A DNA stretch of 64,000 nt from Acidimicrobiaceae bacterium (GTDB lineage: Bacteria; Actinomycetota; Acidimicrobiia; Acidimicrobiales; RAAP-2): positions 1 to 64,000 of the forward strand of contig PMLV01000206.1 of assembly GCA_003160635.1 (NCBI GenBank), read 5' to 3'. Under the pieces are notes generated by a model, which ran no database searches, was not told the DNA's origin, and saw nothing but the letters and a program-made list of their open reading frames with translations. The translations under genes and the position numbers were made by a program. Shown one piece after another: positions 25,821-53,687 of the stretch (positions are counted from its first letter, which is position 1; every line of letters begins with the position of its first letter).

Positions 25821-25838
25821 GTAGTGAGGCACCGGACT

Positions 25839-27395
25839 ATGGACATCGCCGACATCGCGCGTGACGCGCCTGACAAGGTAGCCGTCACCGTCACCTCGGG
25901 TCGCAGCATCTCCTACGGCGAGCTGTTGCGGCGCTCGAACCAGGTTGCCCACCTGCTGTACGACGCCGGACTGCGGCGGGGCGACGGAATCGTGCTCATG
26001 CTGCCCAATTGCATCGAGTTCTACGAGTTGGCCTGGGGTGCCCAGCGTTCCGGCCTGTACTACACACCGGTGAACACGCATCTGACCGCCGACGAGATCG
26101 CCTACATCATCGATGATTCCGGGGCGAAGGCCGTTTTCATCCATGCCTCGGCGAGCGCACTCGCCTCGGAACTCGCAGCGTCCACACGAGGCGCCGGGAC
26201 GGGGGCGGTGACGGGTGTGCGCTTCGTCGTCGGTGGCGACCTGGCGGGTTACGACAACTTCGACGAGGCGATGCGCGTGGCCCCCCACAGCGAACCCCCC
26301 GAGCCCTCACAGGGCACCGAGATGCTCTATTCCTCGGGGACGACAGGACGCCCCAAGGGGGTACGCCGGCCATTGCCGGGCCAGGAGGGATCGTTCGCGC
26401 AATCTGCCACGGAAGCGGGGCTCCGCGCCCTCTACCAGATGGACAGCAACAGCGTGTACCTGTCGCCCGCGCCGCTCTATCACAGCGCGCCGCTCGCCTA
26501 CACGATGGCCGTCCTCCGCATGGGAGCGACGGCGGTGGTCATGGAGCGCTTCGACCCGGAGGCAACGCTGCGCCTGATTGAGGAGTACCGCGTCACCCAC
26601 GCCCAGTTCGTGCCGACCATGTTCGTGCGTCTGCTCAAGTTGGCCCCGACACTTCGTTCTCGCTACGACATCTCCAGCCTGCAATGTGCGATCCACGCCG
26701 CCGCGCCGTGTCCGGTCGAGGTGAAGGCTCAGATGCTCGAGTGGTGGGGACCCATCATCTACGAGTACTACACGGGCACCGAAGCCATCGGCGGAACCAT
26801 CATCGGACCCGAGGAGTGGATGGCGCACCCGGGCTCGGTCGGCAAACCCTTGTCTCCCGTCCACATCCTCGATGAGGACGGCGCGGAGCTGCCCACCGGC
26901 CAACCGGGGAGGATCTTCTTCGACGGGGGAGCGCCCTTCGAATATCACAATGACCCGGCCAAGACGGCCTCGATCCAAAACGATCAGGGCTGGCGCACCC
27001 TCGGCGACGTGGGATACGTCGACACTGAGGGCTACCTCTACCTCACCGATCGGGCGACCTTCATGATCGTCTCCGGCGGTGTGAACATCTACCCCCAGGA
27101 GGCCGAGAACATCCTCGTCATGCATCCCAAGGTCGCCGATGTGGCGGTCTTCGGCGTGCCGAACGAGGAGTTCGGAGAGGAGGTCAAAGCCGTCGTCCAG
27201 CCCCTCGCCTGGGCCGATGCCGGTGACCACCTGGCCGATGAACTGATAGGCCTTTGCCGCTCACGCCTGGCCGGCTACAAGTGCCCGAGGACGATTGACT
27301 TCATCCGCGAGCTTCCCCGCGACCCGAACGGCAAGCTCTACAAGCGCCGCCTGCGCGACGACTACTGGGCCGGTCACAGCACGCGGCTGCTCTGA
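25839..27395 (+). CDS. AMP-forming acyl-CoA ligase (ligase 3)
   Basis: A 518-residue ANL enzyme. The ATG at 25839 is preferred to an in-frame GTG at 25824, because GAGG at 25826-25829 is correctly spaced for it. Motifs: LYSSGTTGRPKGVRRPL (A3, about residue 165), YEYYTGTEAIGG (A5), LGDVGYVDTEGYLYLTDR (A7), FMIVSGGVNIYPQE (A8) and DPNGKLYKRRL (catalytic Lys near the end). The sequence resembles bile-acid/fatty-acid-type ligases of actinobacteria, but the substrate cannot be fixed. Convergent with the kinase gene, 28 bp away. Confidence 0.88.
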   Translation: MDIADIARDAPDKVAVTVTSGRSISYGELLRRSNQVAHLLYDAGLRRGDGIVLMLPNCIEFYELAWGAQRSGLYYTPVNTHLTADEIAYIIDDSGAKAVFIHASASALASELAASTRGAGTGAVTGVRFVVGGDLAGYDNFDEAMRVAPHSEPPEPSQGTEMLYSSGTTGRPKGVRRPLPGQEGSFAQSATEAGLRALYQMDSNSVYLSPAPLYHSAPLAYTMAVLRMGATAVVMERFDPEATLRLIEEYRVTHAQFVPTMFVRLLKLAPTLRSRYDISSLQCAIHAAAPCPVEVKAQMLEWWGPIIYEYYTGTEAIGGTIIGPEEWMAHPGSVGKPLSPVHILDEDGAELPTGQPGRIFFDGGAPFEYHNDPAKTASIQNDQGWRTLGDVGYVDTEGYLYLTDRATFMIVSGGVNIYPQEAENILVMHPKVADVAVFGVPNEEFGEEVKAVVQPLAWADAGDHLADELIGLCRSRLAGYKCPRTIDFIRELPRDPNGKLYKRRLRDDYWAGHSTRLL

Positions 27396-27423: not shown

Positions 27424-28416
27424 TCAGGCCAGGCCGAGCACGCGGCGGGCCGACACGAGCAGCGGGTTGCGCGCGTTGTCCACCGGCGCGACCTCGCGGC
27501 CGCGTCGACGGGAGTTGCGGATGATCAACGCGCTCGCGGCGGCCTGCTTGTACCGCACGAGGGCGGCGAACCACTCGAGGTCGGAAACCTTTCCCCCGCT
27601 GGTTTCCTCGTAGGCGCCGAGCAACGCAGCGTCGCTGGGCATCCCGTCAGCCGTCGGCCTGCCGAGCGCGGGATCGGGGTTGGCCATCATCAAGAACCAC
27701 GCCAGGTCCACCCGCGGGTCACCGCGCGACCAGATCTCCCAGTCGATCACCGAGACGACCCGGTGTCCCAGGGACAACGTGTTCCCCAGTCGGTAATCAC
27801 CGTGCAGGAGTACCGGGGACCCGCTGGGCGGGGTCGTGGTCCGCAGCCTCTCACCGACGTCCTCAGATCCAAGTCGCAGATCGTCCTCGCACGCGGCGAA
27901 TGAATTCGTCCACCGCTCGACTTCGGCGTCGAGCGTCGTCGGCGGCTCCGCGCCGAACCCGACCGCCTCCGGGTCGACCGCGTGAAGATGGCCGAGCACG
28001 CGGGCGGCGTGCAACTCGCGATCGTGCACTTCTTCGGGAGGCGGCCGGTTCTCGGGCGGGAGAAAACTCGGTTCGATGCATTCCCCCGCTTCGAACGACA
28101 TGACGAAGAACGGCGGCGCTTCGGGCGGAGCCCCCGGATCCTCGGCGAGCACACGCGGCACCGGCACGGGCGTCACACCCAAGGCCGCCAGGAGGCGCGC
28201 TTGGCGCAGGACGTCGCGGTTCTTCGTAGGCTCCAGACCGGGCGGCGCCACCTTGACCACGACCTGCTCGGGCCGGCCCTCGACCGTGACGGTGGCCGAA
28301 TACGTGAGGCTCGAGACGCCGCCCTGGAGCGCCATCAGCTCACCGACGGCGTGCCCGGGCATGACCCGGCCCACGCGGGCGCAGAGCTCGTTCTCGTCCA
28401 AGGTGGTGACAGGCAC
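27424..28416 (-). CDS. APH-type phosphotransferase, probable 4-hydroxyacyl-CoA kinase (LvaA / ACAD10-11 kinase-like)
   Basis: A 330-residue protein kinase-like fold of the aminoglycoside phosphotransferase family. The ATP-binding lysine is likely in VVVKV (Lys55), the catalytic loop is HGDYRLGN (His205, Asp207, Asn212) and the metal-binding Asp is Asp225 in IDWE. The same domain is fused to an acyl-CoA dehydrogenase in human ACAD10/ACAD11, and it is the separate protein LvaA in the levulinate operon of Pseudomonas putida, where 4-hydroxyacyl-CoA is phosphorylated before phosphate elimination. The gene starts 6 bp after the dehydrogenase at 28423, which has the matching C-terminal signature, so this role is well supported by context though not proven. 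Confidence 0.82.
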   Translation of the reverse strand: MPVTTLDENELCARVGRVMPGHAVGELMALQGGVSSLTYSATVTVEGRPEQVVVKVAPPGLEPTKNRDVLRQARLLAALGVTPVPVPRVLAEDPGAPPEAPPFFVMSFEAGECIEPSFLPPENRPPPEEVHDRELHAARVLGHLHAVDPEAVGFGAEPPTTLDAEVERWTNSFAACEDDLRLGSEDVGERLRTTTPPSGSPVLLHGDYRLGNTLSLGHRVVSVIDWEIWSRGDPRVDLAWFLMMANPDPALGRPTADGMPSDAALLGAYEETSGGKVSDLEWFAALVRYKQAAASALIIRNSRRRGREVAPVDNARNPLLVSARRVLGLA

Positions 28417-28422
28417 GGATCT

Positions 28423-29715
28423 CTATGCCCGCCTGGCCGCATGGCGGTCCACCCGCTCGGTGTACTCCCTCAGTTCTTCGTCGGAGTCGATGAGGGCTTG
28501 GAACTTCTGGCGGGCCAGGGCCCGCTTGGCCGGCAGGTACTCGCGCGGGAACAGGCCTTCGTGGGGCTGGTAATTCTTCACCAGGTTCCGGGCGATCGTC
28601 ACCTTGTGGACCTCGTCCGGGCCGTCCACCATCGACATGGACGGCGAACTGGACCATATGTCCTTCAGCGGCAACAGGTCCGTCGTACCGAGCGCCCCGT
28701 GCATATGGTGGGCCCGGTAGATGACATCCCTGAGGACCCTGGCCGCTGTGACCTTGCATGCGGCGATGTCGGTACGGACCTCCCGGCCGCTGCTGTTGTC
28801 GATCTTCCAGGCCGTCTGGAGCACCAGGAGCCTGAGCATCTCGACCTGCATGTAGGAGTCGGCGATGTCGTTCTGGACACTCTGGTAGTCGAAGATCAGG
28901 TGGCCTCTCGATTCTCGGGAGATCGCCCGCTCGCACATCATGTCGAGCGCCATCTTCACTTGGGCGACGGTGCGCATGGCATGGTGGATGCGGCCACCAC
29001 CCAGCCGAAACTGGGCCACCTGCTGGGCGCCACCCTCGGGGCCGAGGAGATTGCCCGCCGGGACCCGCACGTCGTTGTAGCGGATGTGGGCGTGGATACC
29101 GGATCCGAGCAGGAACTCGAGGCCTGGTGTGCCCTGCTCGACGATGAACATCCCGTTGTTGCACATGACGATGATGATGTCGGCGGTCTTGCCGAAGCTC
29201 GAGAACCATTTCTCGCCGTTGATGACCCACTCGTCACCGTCTCTGACGGCGTGGGTCCTGAAGCCGTGGGTGTCGGCACCCCCCTGGGGCTCCGTCATGG
29301 AAAAGCAGGAGTGGATCTCCTGGTTGAAGAGCGGCTCCAGGTACTTCGCTTTTTGTTCGGGTGTCCCGTAACGCGCCAGGATGTCCATGTTGCCCGTGTC
29401 GGGCGCCTGACAGCCGAAAATAGACGGCGCGGCCATATTTCGTCCGAGGATTTCGTTCACCAGGGCCAATTTCAATTGGCCGAAACCGGGACCGCCGATC
29501 TCTTTGTCCAAGAAAATCCCCCAGAGCCCGCGCTCCTTCACCTGCTGCTTGAGGCCGTCGACGATCTCCTCGAGCTTTTTCGGCAAGCGAGCACCGCTCC
29601 AGAAGTCAACGGGGAAGGCGAGGGTCAGTGGCTCAATCTGCTCCCGGCAGAAGTGCTCGATCCAGTCGAGTCGCTCCTGCCATTGCGGATCAGTTGAAAA
29701 ATCCCAGGCCATCAA
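28423..29715 (-). CDS. ACAD10/11- or LvaC-like acyl-CoA dehydrogenase
   Basis: A 430-residue acyl-CoA dehydrogenase. It has MTEPQGGADTHGFRTHA near residue 130 (the family motif with A for S), NGEKWFSSFGKTADI, and RESRGHLIFDYQSVQNDIADSYMQ. The C-terminal loop is VDGPDEVHKVTIARN in place of the EGT Glu loop; the GPDEVH sequence is the mark of the ACAD10/ACAD11 group, which converts 4-phosphohydroxyacyl-CoA to an enoyl-CoA. With the kinase at 27424 it would open a route for 4-hydroxy acids (inference from family). Its start has a second in-frame ATG at the next codon. It lies 112 bp downstream of the broken P450. Confidence 0.87.
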   Translation of the reverse strand: MMAWDFSTDPQWQERLDWIEHFCREQIEPLTLAFPVDFWSGARLPKKLEEIVDGLKQQVKERGLWGIFLDKEIGGPGFGQLKLALVNEILGRNMAAPSIFGCQAPDTGNMDILARYGTPEQKAKYLEPLFNQEIHSCFSMTEPQGGADTHGFRTHAVRDGDEWVINGEKWFSSFGKTADIIIVMCNNGMFIVEQGTPGLEFLLGSGIHAHIRYNDVRVPAGNLLGPEGGAQQVAQFRLGGGRIHHAMRTVAQVKMALDMMCERAISRESRGHLIFDYQSVQNDIADSYMQVEMLRLLVLQTAWKIDNSSGREVRTDIAACKVTAARVLRDVIYRAHHMHGALGTTDLLPLKDIWSSSPSMSMVDGPDEVHKVTIARNLVKNYQPHEGLFPREYLPAKRALARQKFQALIDSDEELREYTERVDRHAARRA

Positions 29716-29827: not shown

Positions 29828-30610
29828 TCACGGCGTCCAGACGAGCGGAACGCTCTCCACGTGCCGGAGTCCGGGCAGGTAGTTGAGCTCGGTCCCGGGT
29901 GCCAGTTCGTAGTCCGGGATACGGCGGTGCCATTCACGCAGCGTGACCCGCAGCTCACGCCGGGCCAGGTGCGACCCGGTCGAAATACTCGTAGAATCTC
30001 CTGGCCGGTTTGCTCTTGAAGGCGTCGTCGTTCATCGCCCGATGGCCCGGCGACATCTCTCATGTCGAGCATGGACGCGCCACCCGGCCGGAGGATGCCG
30101 TCTTTTGAGGCGGAGGAACGGGTGGAGTTCCTCCAGCGGCAGGCCCATCAGTCCCAGGAACACCGAAGAGGGGAACGGTACGGCGAATTCCTCTGTGAAG
30201 TCGCAGTCTCCCCGCTCCACGAATGCGTCCATGAAGTGGTCGACGCGCTCGGCGATGTCCGCCTCGGCGGCGTCCATCTTCTTCGGGGCAAAGAGCGGGT
30301 CGAGGATCTTGCGGTACTTGAGGTGCGCAGGGGGATCGACACTCAACGGCAGGAGTGGGCGTACATCGCCCAGCTGCACCAGGCCTTCGGAGGTGAAACG
30401 ACCGGGGTCGCGCAGCACCTCGTTGACCGCGGAGCGGCTGGAGGCGATGACGAACCCGTCGACGGGTTTGCAGGCGCCTCCCTCCTCGAGCATCCGCGCG
30501 TAACGGGGTCGGGGGTCGGAAAGGTCGAACATTTCCTCGAGGGGTTCCATCCCCTGAGTCATGTCGAGGCCGGTCGCCGCCTTTCCCGCGCCTGCCTCGG
30601 CCTCGGTCAT
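29828..30610 (-). pseudogene. Cytochrome P450 remnant with frameshifts and a large internal deletion
   Basis: The first about 168 codons from 30610 read as a normal P450 N-terminus (ITSSRSAV-type B-helix region VIASSRSAVNEVLRDPGRF, then LPLSVDPPAHLKYRKILDPLF, then GLMGLPLEELHPFLRL). At about 30110 one extra base in an AAAA run shifts the frame; the correct continuation LKDGILRPGG is read in the next frame. A further shift is needed to read AFKSKPARRFYEYFDRV. The sequence then jumps to GSHLARRELRVTLREWHRRIPDYE, the end of a P450 just after the haem cysteine, and stops at 29828. The I-helix, ExxR and haem-binding loop, some 180-200 residues, are missing, so no function can remain. It lies between amidohydrolase C1 and the LvaC-like gene. 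Confidence 0.88.
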
Positions 30611-30708
30611 GTCGTGCCCCCTCCATCACATCCTCCGGCGCCCCCCGGCCTCCCCGGGAGATCGAAGCTGGTGGCCGAGAAGTTCGACGTGCTGCGAGCC
30701 CTCAGGCC

Positions 30709-33772: not shown

Positions 33773-34552
33773 TCATCGAGCCTCGAACCGTGGCGGCCGA
33801 CCCTCCCCGGCGGCGCGGACGCCTTCTGTCCAGTCCGACGTCGATTGCAGCCATTCCTGCTCTATCGCCTCGTGCTCCGAGGCCACCCGGAACCGCTCGA
33901 CCATGTCGGCTCGCATGGTCTGGCGGATCGACCGTATGGCGAGTGGTGCGGACGAGGCGATCTCCGCTGCGAGCGCGTGGGCCCCGGCGCGTACCTCGTC
34001 GCGGGAGACCAACCCATCGCACAGCCCGATCGCCAGCGCCTCTTCTCCCTTGACCCTTCGCCCGGTGAAGAGCAGATTGAGGGCATGTTGCTGGCCGATG
34101 ATGGCGGGGAGGGTGACGGTAAGCCCGAGGATGTGGTGGAATCCGAACCGGGCGAAGTTGGCTGAGAACCTCGCCTCCGGACAAGCAATGCGAAAGTCCG
34201 CCAGACACGCCAGACCGAAGCCGGCACCGATCGCGGCACCTTGTACGGCAGCCACGACGGGCGTCTTGACGGAGAAGAGCCGGGCCGCCTCCCGGTACAG
34301 CAGATCCGGACCGACGGATCGTCCATCGGTCGCACTTCCCGAAAGATTGGCCCCGGCACAGAAATGCTTGCCTTCTGAGCAGAGCAGGATCGCTCGGCAA
34401 TCGACCAATGCATCGAGTGCGGCATAGGCGTCGCCCAGCGCTTCGATCACGTCGGTCTCGAAGAAATTCTCGGGTGGTCGGTGGATCTCGACGGTGGCGA
34501 CGAAGGAATCGTCGACGGTCGCCGTCACATCTCCAAAACGCTCGTCGAACAT
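33773..34552 (-). CDS. Enoyl-CoA hydratase/isomerase (crotonase) family protein
   Basis: A 259-residue crotonase-fold protein. The oxyanion-hole segments are present: EGKHFCAGANL (about residues 64-74) and GAAIGAGFGLACLADFRIA (about 112-130). The segment that carries the first catalytic Glu in true hydratases (FPE-like, near residue 144) reads HHILGLTVTLPAIIG here, without Glu, so this could be an isomerase, hydrolase or atypical lyase instead of a classical hydratase. It is the only crotonase in the window and no MaoC-type hydratase was seen, so it is the main candidate for the hydration step. Divergent from dehydrogenase pair 3 with the operator at 34586 between. Confidence 0.85.
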   Translation of the reverse strand: MFDERFGDVTATVDDSFVATVEIHRPPENFFETDVIEALGDAYAALDALVDCRAILLCSEGKHFCAGANLSGSATDGRSVGPDLLYREAARLFSVKTPVVAAVQGAAIGAGFGLACLADFRIACPEARFSANFARFGFHHILGLTVTLPAIIGQQHALNLLFTGRRVKGEEALAIGLCDGLVSRDEVRAGAHALAAEIASSAPLAIRSIRQTMRADMVERFRVASEHEAIEQEWLQSTSDWTEGVRAAGEGRPPRFEAR

Positions 34553-44133: not shown

Positions 44134-45045
44134 TCATTGCTGAAACGAGAGCCGAAGTCCTGGTCGAGGCCAGCGACACGAGATCAGGCGCCCGGACAGC
44201 GACAAGGTGACATACGCCGTCATGAGGTCGGGACCGCCAAAACAGAGGTTGGTGACCGCCCCTTCGACGATGTGTGCCGGCAGGGTGTATTTCTCCACCG
44301 GCCCTCCGTCGCAGGGGACGACGGTGATCCCGCTGTCGACCAGCGTGCCCACGCAGACTGCGCCGCTGCTGTCGACGGCCAGAGAATCCAACTCCTGGAC
44401 ACCGGGAAGGCCGACGAGAATGGCGTCCCGATCGACCGAACCGGTGCCGGCCAGCGCACGGATGCTGCAGCCCGGTGAAGGGACCAGCACGCCCGGCGAC
44501 TCGATCCTCCGGCGGGCCACCTGCCGGGTATGGGTCTGAGCCCAGTAGAGCACCGACTGATCCGGTGACAGGCCGATGCCATTGGGGTTCGGCACATCCG
44601 TCACGTGGCGGCTGATGTGACGTCCGTCCAGTGACGCATAGAGGATCGCATCGCCGAGAAAATCGGTGAACCAGAAGTTCCCGGTGTCGTCAAAGACGAG
44701 ATCATTCGGACCGACGAGCGGGATCCCATCTGCCTCGGTGTAGAGCACCCGCACGGTCCCGGTATCGGGTTCGACCCTCTGGATGCACGGCCCGGGCTGG
44801 CCGGGCTGGCCGGGAGTTGCCCGCCCGCCGTTGTTGTAGATGTACATGGCTCCGTCGGGCCCTCGCGCCGCCCCGTTGGGTCCACCTCCGACCTCCGCCA
44901 CGACCGACACGTTTCCATCTGCGTCGCATCGCGACACGCGCCCTGCGTAAATCTCGACGAAGACGACCGAGCCGTCAGCCATGGCGACCGGCCCCTCGGG
45001 AAATGCGAGCCCTTCAGCCAGGACGTGGACATCTTGCAGTTCCAT
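44134..45045 (-). CDS. SMP-30/gluconolactonase-family (LRE-like) beta-propeller lactonase
   Basis: A 303-residue six-bladed beta-propeller protein of the SMP-30/gluconolaconase/LRE group, which hydrolyses lactones with one divalent metal. The metal ligands are visible: Glu in LAFPEGPVA (about residue 17), Asn in GPNGAA, Asn/Asp in GPNDLVFD and in NPNGIGLSPDQSVLYW. The start codon ATG 45045 has GGAG in front. It is last in the TetR-headed unit, 112 bp behind CoA-transferase pair C. A lactone intermediate (for example from a Baeyer-Villiger or 4-hydroxy-acid step) would fit the pathway, by inference. Confidence 0.85.
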   Translation of the reverse strand: MELQDVHVLAEGLAFPEGPVAMADGSVVFVEIYAGRVSRCDADGNVSVVAEVGGGPNGAARGPDGAMYIYNNGGRATPGQPGQPGPCIQRVEPDTGTVRVLYTEADGIPLVGPNDLVFDDTGNFWFTDFLGDAILYASLDGRHISRHVTDVPNPNGIGLSPDQSVLYWAQTHTRQVARRRIESPGVLVPSPGCSIRALAGTGSVDRDAILVGLPGVQELDSLAVDSSGAVCVGTLVDSGITVVPCDGGPVEKYTLPAHIVEGAVTNLCFGGPDLMTAYVTLSLSGRLISCRWPRPGLRLSFQQ

Positions 45046-51747: not shown

Positions 51748-52803
51748 TCAGATGGTGATCCAACGTCCTCTGTCTGCGGCGGATTGGCGTACTGCTGCGA
51801 GCACGCGCATGGTGGCGAGGCCGTCGGCAAACGTGGCCGGGTGCGGGCCCGGCCCCGGCGGTGCTCCCTCGATGGCACGCCTGAACGCTTCGGTCAAGCG
51901 GATGTAGGGCGGGAGTTCCATCAAGGTCATGTCTGCATGCTGCCCCGCCGCCAGTGCATCGACGTCAGGGAGCGCAAGAAAACCCGGGGGGGCGAGGACC
52001 CGTCCTTCCGGCTCGCCGTCGGTGGCGATATGCACCGTGTCGCCTTCGGCCCAGAGCGTCCCCTTGGTTCCCACCACGCGCGTCATGCCCGCACCCGGCC
52101 CGGCTGCCGCCCCGCTCTGCACCAACGCCACGTCGACGCCACTGCGGGTAGAGGCACGAATGTTGAACGTGTCGTCGACGCCGAGCTCGGGATCACTGGT
52201 CGACGTAAGGCCGGCGCTGACCGCCTCGATCTCACCGAACCACTGCCGCACGGCATCGATCCGGTGGGAGCCCGACGCGTTGAGCCAACCTCCTCCGCGC
52301 GCCGGGTCGAACCACCATTGCGGCATCGCAAAGGTACGGAGCATCGAGATGAACGAAGCGCTGACGAACAACTTCGGCGTGCCGATCACCCCCTCGGCGA
52401 GCGCCCATTCGATCGACGACTGGGCGACCGACCAGCGGAATTCATGGCCGAGGACGGTGACCACGCCGGCGGCGTCGCCGGCGTGCACCAGCTGCTCGGC
52501 CTCGGTGACGTCGAGGGTGAAGGGCTTCTCGCACAGCACGTGGCAGCCAGCGGCGATGGCCTCGGTGGCCAAGGGGGCATGGGTGGCCGGAGGGCCGGCG
52601 ATGGACACGGCGTCCAGCCCGAGGGCAAGGGCCTCGCCCAAGGACGTGCAGGCGTTTTCGACCCCGAACCGCTCAGCCCGGCGGGCCGTCTTGGCCGGGT
52701 CGACCCCGACGAGGGCGACGACGTCGAAACCCGCCTGGCGGAGCGCCGGGATATGGATGCGGGCACCGAAGGAAGTGCCGACGACGCAGGTGCGCAGGCT
52801 CAA
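51748..52803 (-). CDS. Gfo/Idh/MocA-family oxidoreductase
   Basis: A 351-residue NAD(P)-dependent oxidoreductase of the glucose-fructose oxidoreductase/inositol dehydrogenase family. It starts at TTG 52803, which overlaps the SDR stop as TTGA, a coupling arrangement; the Rossmann strand CVVGTSFGARIHIPALR begins at residue 5. The family motif EKPF occurs in HVLCEKPFTLDV (about residue 95), and WWFDPARGGGWLNASGSHRID near residue 170 contains the usual substrate-domain GG..D/H segment. Family members oxidise sugars or related polyols, but some act on other cyclic alcohols. Confidence 0.85.
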   Translation of the reverse strand: MSLRTCVVGTSFGARIHIPALRQAGFDVVALVGVDPAKTARRAERFGVENACTSLGEALALGLDAVSIAGPPATHAPLATEAIAAGCHVLCEKPFTLDVTEAEQLVHAGDAAGVVTVLGHEFRWSVAQSSIEWALAEGVIGTPKLFVSASFISMLRTFAMPQWWFDPARGGGWLNASGSHRIDAVRQWFGEIEAVSAGLTSTSDPELGVDDTFNIRASTRSGVDVALVQSGAAAGPGAGMTRVVGTKGTLWAEGDTVHIATDGEPEGRVLAPPGFLALPDVDALAAGQHADMTLMELPPYIRLTEAFRRAIEGAPPGPGPHPATFADGLATMRVLAAVRQSAADRGRWITI

Positions 52804-53687
52804 CTGTCCGCCGCCACTTTGCCGGCCCTCCCGCCCCCGGCGGCGTAACGACCCGCAGGAGTCCAACTGGGAACAAGGTTGCGCTCGGCGCAGAACTGCT
52901 GGCTCTCGATATTCGTGCCGTTACGTGGCGGGTTGTCGGTCGGGTCATTGGCGAGCCAGGCTGCGACCGCGCCGCAGACCTCGGGCGGGGCAGCGTACGA
53001 CAGGTCGAGGCCTTCCAATTCGGCCGTGTGCAGGGCCATGCGCTCAGTGGCGATGAAGCCGGGGTGGACGTTGTAGGCGGTAATGCCCTTGTCGCCCAAC
53101 TCGACGGCCAGAATCCCGGCGGCCTTGAAGAGGCCGGCTTTGCCAACCGCGTAGCCGATGCCATAACTGCCCATGTCGAGCGGATCCGTGTAGGCCACAC
53201 CGGAGGTGACGTTCAGAACGGTCCCCTTGCCCCTTTTGACCATGCCAGGAACGAGCAGCTTGATAAGGGTCAGCGGCGCCACGATGTCGATGTCGATCTC
53301 TTCCTGCAGATCGGCCAGATCGAGTTCCAGCACCGAGGCTTGCGCCCCTTTACCGGTGTAGATGGCGTTGTTGACAAGAACGTCAACATGGCCCCACTTG
53401 GCGAGCACTTCTCCCACGGCGAGGCCGATGGAGAGCGGGTCGGACAGGTCCATCCGGACCGGTAGCGCCTCTTGGCCCTGCTCGCGGACGACGTCAGCCG
53501 TGTTCTCGACGCTGCCGGGCAGGCTGCGCACGGCGCCGTCATGGCCAACGTCGAACCCGCTGCCTTCTTGGATCGTGCGTGCGGTGACGGCGACGTCGAA
53601 ACCGACCTTCGCCAGTTCGATGGCGATCGCCCGGCCCACGCCGCGGCTGGCGCCGGTCACCAGCGCCACTCTTCGTTCTTCTGCCAT
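52800..53687 (-). CDS. SDR-family oxidoreductase
   Basis: A 295-residue SDR with TGASRGVGRAIAIELAK (residues 11-27), LVNNAIYTG, the serine in LNVTSGVAY and YAVGK (Tyr about 181). The N-terminal segment is classical, with 20 extra residues at the C-terminus after the ESQQFC segment. It is first in a three-gene minus-strand unit and reads away from the SnoaL-like gene at 53962. The 274-bp gap upstream lacks the shared operator, so this unit is probably controlled separately. Confidence 0.85.
   Translation of the reverse strand: MAEERRVALVTGASRGVGRAIAIELAKVGFDVAVTARTIQEGSGFDVGHDGAVRSLPGSVENTADVVREQGQEALPVRMDLSDPLSIGLAVGEVLAKWGHVDVLVNNAIYTGKGAQASVLELDLADLQEEIDIDIVAPLTLIKLLVPGMVKRGKGTVLNVTSGVAYTDPLDMGSYGIGYAVGKAGLFKAAGILAVELGDKGITAYNVHPGFIATERMALHTAELEGLDLSYAAPPEVCGAVAAWLANDPTDNPPRNGTNIESQQFCAERNLVPSWTPAGRYAAGGGRAGKVAADS

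Follow-up and report, generated by a model that had tools for sequence, protein, structure and literature searches.

The adjacent kinase and acyl-CoA dehydrogenase (ACAD) genes analyzed here probably form a co-transcribed dehydration module, in which the kinase would phosphorylate a hydroxyl group of an acyl-CoA and an ACAD11-type flavoenzyme would eliminate the phosphate to give a 2-enoyl-CoA. Hydroxyl groups at C4 or at branched carbons block β-oxidation. A phosphorylate-then-eliminate module is already known from levulinate metabolism and from mammalian ACAD10/11: in ACAD10/11, LvaA/LvaC, and the Burkholderia orthologues, a 4-hydroxyacyl-CoA is phosphorylated and the phosphate is eliminated, and a transient flavin redox step was proposed for ACAD11 (PMC12440821, PMC11342911, PMC6692424). 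Added here are the phosphate pockets of many actinobacterial ACAD11-like proteins, a kinase clade with an altered acceptor site encoded beside such enzymes, and a dehydrogenase subclade with a shortened middle domain. They provide concrete candidates for the catabolism of hydroxylated compounds of unassigned nature.

The phosphorylation-then-elimination chemistry is a well-supported prediction for the pair, because the phosphate pocket is intact and relatives of the kinase are recurrently found beside ACAD11-like genes. Since the proteins are homologous, the pair in the window (the whole 64-kb stretch of DNA that was analyzed) most likely acts like ACAD10/11 and LvaA/LvaC, and by analogy a 4-hydroxyacyl-CoA is our best guess at its substrate. 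The kinase would move a phosphate from ATP onto the hydroxyl group of the acyl-CoA, most likely at C4 (γ). In the flavoenzyme, an Asp base would take the α proton, a hydride would pass through FAD, and the phosphate, held in an Arg/His/Arg pocket, would be expelled to leave the 2-enoyl-CoA. This product would enter β-oxidation, and enoyl-CoA hydratase, thiolase, and ACAD genes are present within the same 64 kb. In this scheme, we infer the CoA-bound acceptor, the position of its hydroxyl group, and its carbon skeleton, as well as co-transcription.

Gene pair and genomic surroundings

The window has a GC content of 65% and belongs to the draft genome of a soil actinobacterium, 6.9 Mb in 342 contigs. 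The kinase gene lies downstream of the dehydrogenase gene on the minus strand, and the gap between them is AGATCC. Both ORFs and the 6-bp distance given in the original prediction were re-found (Table 1), as were the HGD-N-DWE motifs of the kinase, predicted to be complete, and GPDEVH in the dehydrogenase. Both reading frames have a high GC3 (0.86 and 0.85). The ATG at 29712 is probably the start codon of the dehydrogenase, because relatives begin with MAWDFSTEP; the TTG at 29715, one codon upstream, would add one residue.

Table 1. Positions of the gene pair, its active-site elements, and two neighboring genes in the window
Feature	Position	Strand	Details
Acyl-CoA dehydrogenase ORF	28423-29715	-	430 codons, TTG start; ACAD N/M/C domains (Pfam)
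Dehydrogenase, probable coding span	28423..29712	-	429 aa from ATG 29712
Phosphate-pocket helix RLGGGRIHHAMR	28972..29007	-	Equivalents of ACAD11 R626, R631, H634, R637 (residue-by-residue alignment)
Catalytic Asp (= ACAD11 D753) in VDGPDEVH	28624..28626	-	Alignment to ACAD11
APH-fold small-molecule kinase	27424..28416	-	330 aa, GTG start; Pfam APH E=6e-33
Catalytic loop HGDYRLGN	27781..27804	-	Asp 207 = ACAD11 D220, Asn 212 = N225
Ala at ACAD11 R176 position (modelled CoA contact)	27925..27927	-	Alignment
FadD4-like acyl-CoA ligase	25824..27395	+	Convergent with kinase, 28 bp between; Pfam AMP-binding
Enoyl-CoA hydratase/isomerase	33773..34552	-	Pfam ECH_1 2.4e-42

Judged by the annotated genes, the pair sits in a catabolic region. 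Around it are CoA ligases, Amidohydro_2 proteins, CaiB-type CoA transferases, three other ACADs, an aldehyde dehydrogenase, an enoyl-CoA hydratase, and a thiolase. The convergent ligase, whose best NCBIfam model is FadD4 (647 bits, under the cut-off of 850), could make the acyl-CoA ester, and the hydratase could act on the product in the next step. An unusually dense set of catabolic genes extends over about 42 kb (8748-50638); it includes at least six Amidohydro_2 proteins and at least six CaiB/BaiF CoA-transferases, along with three conventional ACADs and four ligases of the AMP-forming type.

Among the annotated neighbors of the pair, no LvaD-type SDR was found; a single SDR was found in the window, 23 kb off at 52800-53687. 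Of 80 related loci, 21 have an LvaD-like SDR no more than 3 kb away. We count the lack of one beside the window pair against the preferred explanation, and the hydroxyl group may therefore come from elsewhere. Directly upstream of the dehydrogenase gene is a cytochrome P450 remnant (29829-30630, minus strand). ORF 30032-30610 contains its N-terminal half, followed by a frame change and then by the C-terminal tail alone; nothing remains of the part with the ExxR and heme-cysteine motifs, due to pseudogenization or assembly loss. It is possible that this broken P450 was the ancestral source of the hydroxyl group. In Streptomyces locus L173, which has the same kinase type, the P450 is intact.

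Phosphate pocket and clade of the dehydrogenase

The best solved relatives of the dehydrogenase in sequence searches were ACAD11 (2wbi/8v3u) and M. abscessus 4hr3, with E ~1e-61 versus 1e-38 for the next enzyme. In a comparison of the predicted fold (pLDDT 82), these three structures were again at the top, and other ACADs trailed them by about four orders of magnitude. The ACAD11 residues demonstrated or modelled to hold and eliminate the 4-phosphate are R626, H634, and R637, along with R631 and the catalytic D753, and mutation of R626, H634, or R637 abolished phosphate elimination (PMC12440821). The window helix RLGGGRIHHAMR differs from RLGPGRIHHCMR of ACAD11 in a single position, C635, which is changed to the Ala common in the clade. 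At the D753 position, the window dehydrogenase has the catalytic Asp in place of Glu, as in the ACAD10/11/LvaC type.

These residues were surveyed in 98 aligned proteins (69 ACAD11-like proteins and 29 conventional ACADs). R626, R631, M636, and D753 are kept in all 69 ACAD11-like proteins, H634 in 67, and R637 in 68. In contrast, none of the 29 conventional ACADs is listed with Arg at the R626 position, and the residue set is not present in them. The R626, H634, R637, and D753 set can serve as a marker that picks out such enzymes from the many genes labelled no more precisely than acyl-CoA dehydrogenase and phosphotransferase. The source genome encodes five ACAD11-like dehydrogenases (L009-L013) and has a second kinase-dehydrogenase pair on contig C248; the dehydrogenase on C308 (L013) has Asn for the phosphate-binding R637, and its function may have changed.

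In a quick tree, all 69 ACAD11-like proteins were joined with a support of 100, apart from other ACADs. Its sequence places the window dehydrogenase firmly inside the ACAD10/11/LvaC clade. There it branches off first in a subclade of 27 members (support 100) that includes proteins of Acidimicrobiia, Streptosporangiaceae, Mycobacterium, and Myxococcota. The sister group of this subclade is a large clade of actinobacterial and proteobacterial proteins, and the branch with ACAD11, 4hr3, and the Burkholderia proteins is separate. Since the window dehydrogenase is in this sister subclade, LvaC/ACAD11 orthology in the narrow sense was rejected.

About 20 residues of the middle domain are missing in the subclade. 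Wherever both landmarks were found, the distance from the FAD strand to RVP was 43 residues in the trimmed proteins versus 61-69 in other ACAD11-like proteins. In conventional ACADs, these middle-domain loops help bind the CoA nucleotide; therefore, carrier binding may differ in the trimmed subclade. Neighbors of the trimmed dehydrogenases in Mycobacterium (amidase, PhoD-like phosphatase, SDR, and ABC transporter) revealed no shared pathway.

Core, acceptor site, and relatives of the kinase

The kinase has an intact core, with HGD (205-207), N212, and DWE (225-227), all of which are kept among relatives. The acceptor site is altered. At the R176 position, 13 of 13 members of the window kinase clade have A, E, D, or G, whereas all LvaA/ACAD11-type kinases compared have Arg. 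Likewise, the alpha-C Glu is replaced by Gln in 13/13 clade members and is kept in every LvaA/ACAD11-type kinase compared. The clade itself is supported by 100/100 in the trees and falls outside the kinase group to which ACAD11, 3dxp, and the partners of mycobacterial dehydrogenases belong (branch support 93/97). These traits (the lost Arg176, the Gln, and the outside position) count against the best explanation. We conclude that the kinase probably works like the LvaA/ACAD11 kinase and should not be filed as one, because it belongs to a separate clade, has Gln for the alpha-C Glu, and has R176 replaced. No description of this clade was found in literature searches.

The original prediction had placed the pair in the ACAD10/11 (LvaA/LvaC) route. 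For the dehydrogenase this is borne out by all the phosphate-pocket residues and the catalytic Asp, but the kinase departs from it, having its own clade and no Arg at R176. ACAD11, 3dxp, and Burkholderia/Methylobacterium homologues were the stand-ins for LvaA/LvaC in these comparisons, which put the dehydrogenase in the same clade, though not as an LvaC orthologue, and the kinase outside the LvaA/ACAD11 type. LvaA orthology of the kinase was rejected on these grounds.

The best solved relatives of the kinase by sequence were 3dxp, 9o56, the 25-hydroxy steroid kinase, and Rv3168, followed by ACAD11. The predicted fold has a pLDDT of 92; its closest counterparts among the matches listed were 3dxp (Z 29.1) and the 25-hydroxy steroid kinase (Z 27.3). 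The ACAD11 kinase domain was absent among the 50 fold matches listed, from which we draw no inference.

An APH fold shared with resistance enzymes and a weak NCBIfam APH(3') match could be taken to mean that the kinase is an antibiotic-modifying phosphotransferase. We consider this extremely improbable and rejected it: the match reached 34.7 bits against a cut-off of 205, and enzymes other than resistance kinases lead the ranking of solved structures by both sequence and fold, the best relatives in the sequence search being 3dxp (an ACAD-partner kinase), the steroid kinase, and ACAD11. Macrolide kinases ranked no better than E 0.0026 and aminoglycoside kinases no better than E ~2, and the genomic setting is catabolic. 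A closer relationship to antibiotic phosphotransferases, which would have spoken against the original prediction, was thus seen neither in sequence nor in fold nor in the NCBIfam score.

In the main rival reading, the kinase would instead phosphorylate a free, non-CoA alcohol or hydroxy acid, such as a tertiary alcohol, with CoA being added by a neighboring ligase before the ACAD11-type enzyme eliminates the phosphate. A tertiary-alcohol kinase is established (PMC8449060), and several observations are in line with such an acceptor: the CoA-contact Arg is lost across the whole clade; the predicted fold is nearly as close to the steroid kinase as to 3dxp; the tree puts the clade on the steroid-kinase/Rv3168 side at the branch mentioned above; and a CoA ligase gene ends 28 bp from the window kinase gene, while in Streptomyces L173 one precedes the kinase gene by 4 bp. 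Grouping with 9fsg (the steroid kinase) and Rv3168 alone was neither favored nor rejected (p-AU 0.152). However, the sequence scores higher with the ACAD-partner kinase 3dxp (67.6 bits) than with the steroid kinase (49.9 bits), and R176 of ACAD11 is a modelled contact only. Overall, we judge a free acceptor unlikely. Also rather unlikely is the broader idea that a second kinase lineage, distinct from LvaA/ACAD11, was recruited to ACAD11-type phosphate elimination, with a free, tertiary, or ring hydroxyl as the acceptor and CoA coming later. If so, the role of ACAD11-type enzymes as dehydratases that work by phosphate elimination would be a general one, reaching far past 4-hydroxy fatty acids.

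Linkage of kinase and dehydrogenase genes

In 19 genomes, an APH kinase gene was found within 3 kb of 11 of 62 ACAD11-like genes, while 1.15 were expected (Poisson p 4e-8); this sample is slightly biased, since two of the genomes were chosen through kinase matches. In the source genome, none of 15 other ACAD loci has an APH gene in its flanks of ~1.5 kb. Ten kinases of the window type were also collected by kinase sequence alone, without reference to a dehydrogenase. Six of them (G016:C19, G084, H41, H42, H44, and H45) are encoded within ~2.5 kb of an ACAD11-like gene; one more is within 9 kb of such a gene, and three are not.

The dehydrogenase partners of the window kinase clade span three ACAD11-like branches of the tree: the trimmed branch (the window), clade 2 (L173, L174, L117, and L133), and the ACAD11/4hr3 branch (L176 and L177). 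The occurrence of one kinase lineage beside three kinds of ACAD11-like enzymes is our strongest argument that it makes their phospho-intermediate despite the altered acceptor site. The L176 and L177 partners have Tyr in place of H634.

Most trimmed-subclade dehydrogenases have no kinase gene within 8 kb, which also counts against the preferred reading. Those with a kinase nearby are the window enzyme and G023, G035, and L075 (a MAG), the last three with LvaA-type kinases. Such mostly missing kinases, and missing middle-domain loops suggestive of altered binding, would fit a pocket that serves another acidic substituent, or an ordinary acyl-CoA dehydrogenase, the adjacent kinase being metabolically separate. 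We find this quite improbable: trimmed proteins conserve the pocket and the Asp base no less strictly than other ACAD11-like proteins do, ACAD10/11 showed no activity with plain acyl-CoAs (PMC12440821), and G023, G035, and L075 also pair a trimmed dehydrogenase with a kinase. The trimmed dehydrogenases of loci L058-L075 have an intact phosphate pocket, mostly with no kinase within 8 kb.

Comparison with known systems

Like mammalian ACAD10/ACAD11, the window pair combines a kinase with an ACAD that has the R626/R631/H634/R637/D753 equivalents and belongs to the same dehydrogenase clade (PMC12440821, PMC11342911). It differs in being encoded by separate genes, in its sister-subclade dehydrogenase with a middle domain shorter by ~20 aa (32-35% identical in the fold alignment), and in its kinase, which is from another lineage and is devoid of R176.

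Separate kinase and dehydrogenase genes, with a CoA ligase and β-oxidation genes nearby, are shared with Pseudomonas LvaA/LvaC. LvaC has the ACAD10/11 active-site signature (PMC12440821) and shares 56-62% identity with ACAD11/10 (PMC11342911); the window dehydrogenase is far more distant from them. Unlike the lva operon, the window has neither an adjoining SDR (LvaD) nor a gene between the two, and its kinase is not orthologous to the ACAD11 type. The P. citronellolis cluster is without lvaB (PMC6692424), and a Burkholderia LvaA orthologue was active in vitro without LvaB (PMC11342911), so that an LvaB-like protein, proposed as a check in the original prediction, would say little about the pair.

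The 25-hydroxy steroid kinase of Sterolibacterium denitrificans (9fsg) likewise has an APH fold and activates an alcohol so that phosphate can be eliminated, and its fold is the second closest to the window kinase among the matches listed. It differs in that its acceptor is a steroid tertiary alcohol and no CoA is involved; no lyase candidate is encoded beside its gene (PMC8449060). Together with this enzyme, 3dxp (Ralstonia eutropha Reut_A1007) and Rv3168 (3ats) are the closest solved structures. The CoA-contact Arg is retained in 3dxp, which clusters with the ACAD11 kinase; the window kinase differs in both respects. Rv3168 clusters with the steroid kinase and carries WGD where the window kinase has HGD.

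Clues to the substrate from other loci

The original prediction had cited the SMP-30 lactonase at 44134 in support of a γ-hydroxy intermediate. This link is weak, as the lactonase gene is 14 kb away from the pair. No SMP-30 homologue was found within 3 kb in the 80 loci, and in one other locus alone, on a Methylobacterium plasmid (L178, 9917-10957), does one lie near a pair of kinase and ACAD11-like genes, at a distance of ~1 kb. This homologue scores 181 bits with the window protein (44134-45045) and is missing from the PLSDB table annotation. Synteny did not name the substrate either: in no locus outside the window were more than four window gene types found at ≥40% identity. A Deinococcus plasmid (L142, 4992-9243) encodes an ACAD11-like dehydrogenase, an SDR, an APH kinase, and a histidine phosphatase, which is the combination reported for the levulinate cluster of P. 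citronellolis (PMC6692424).
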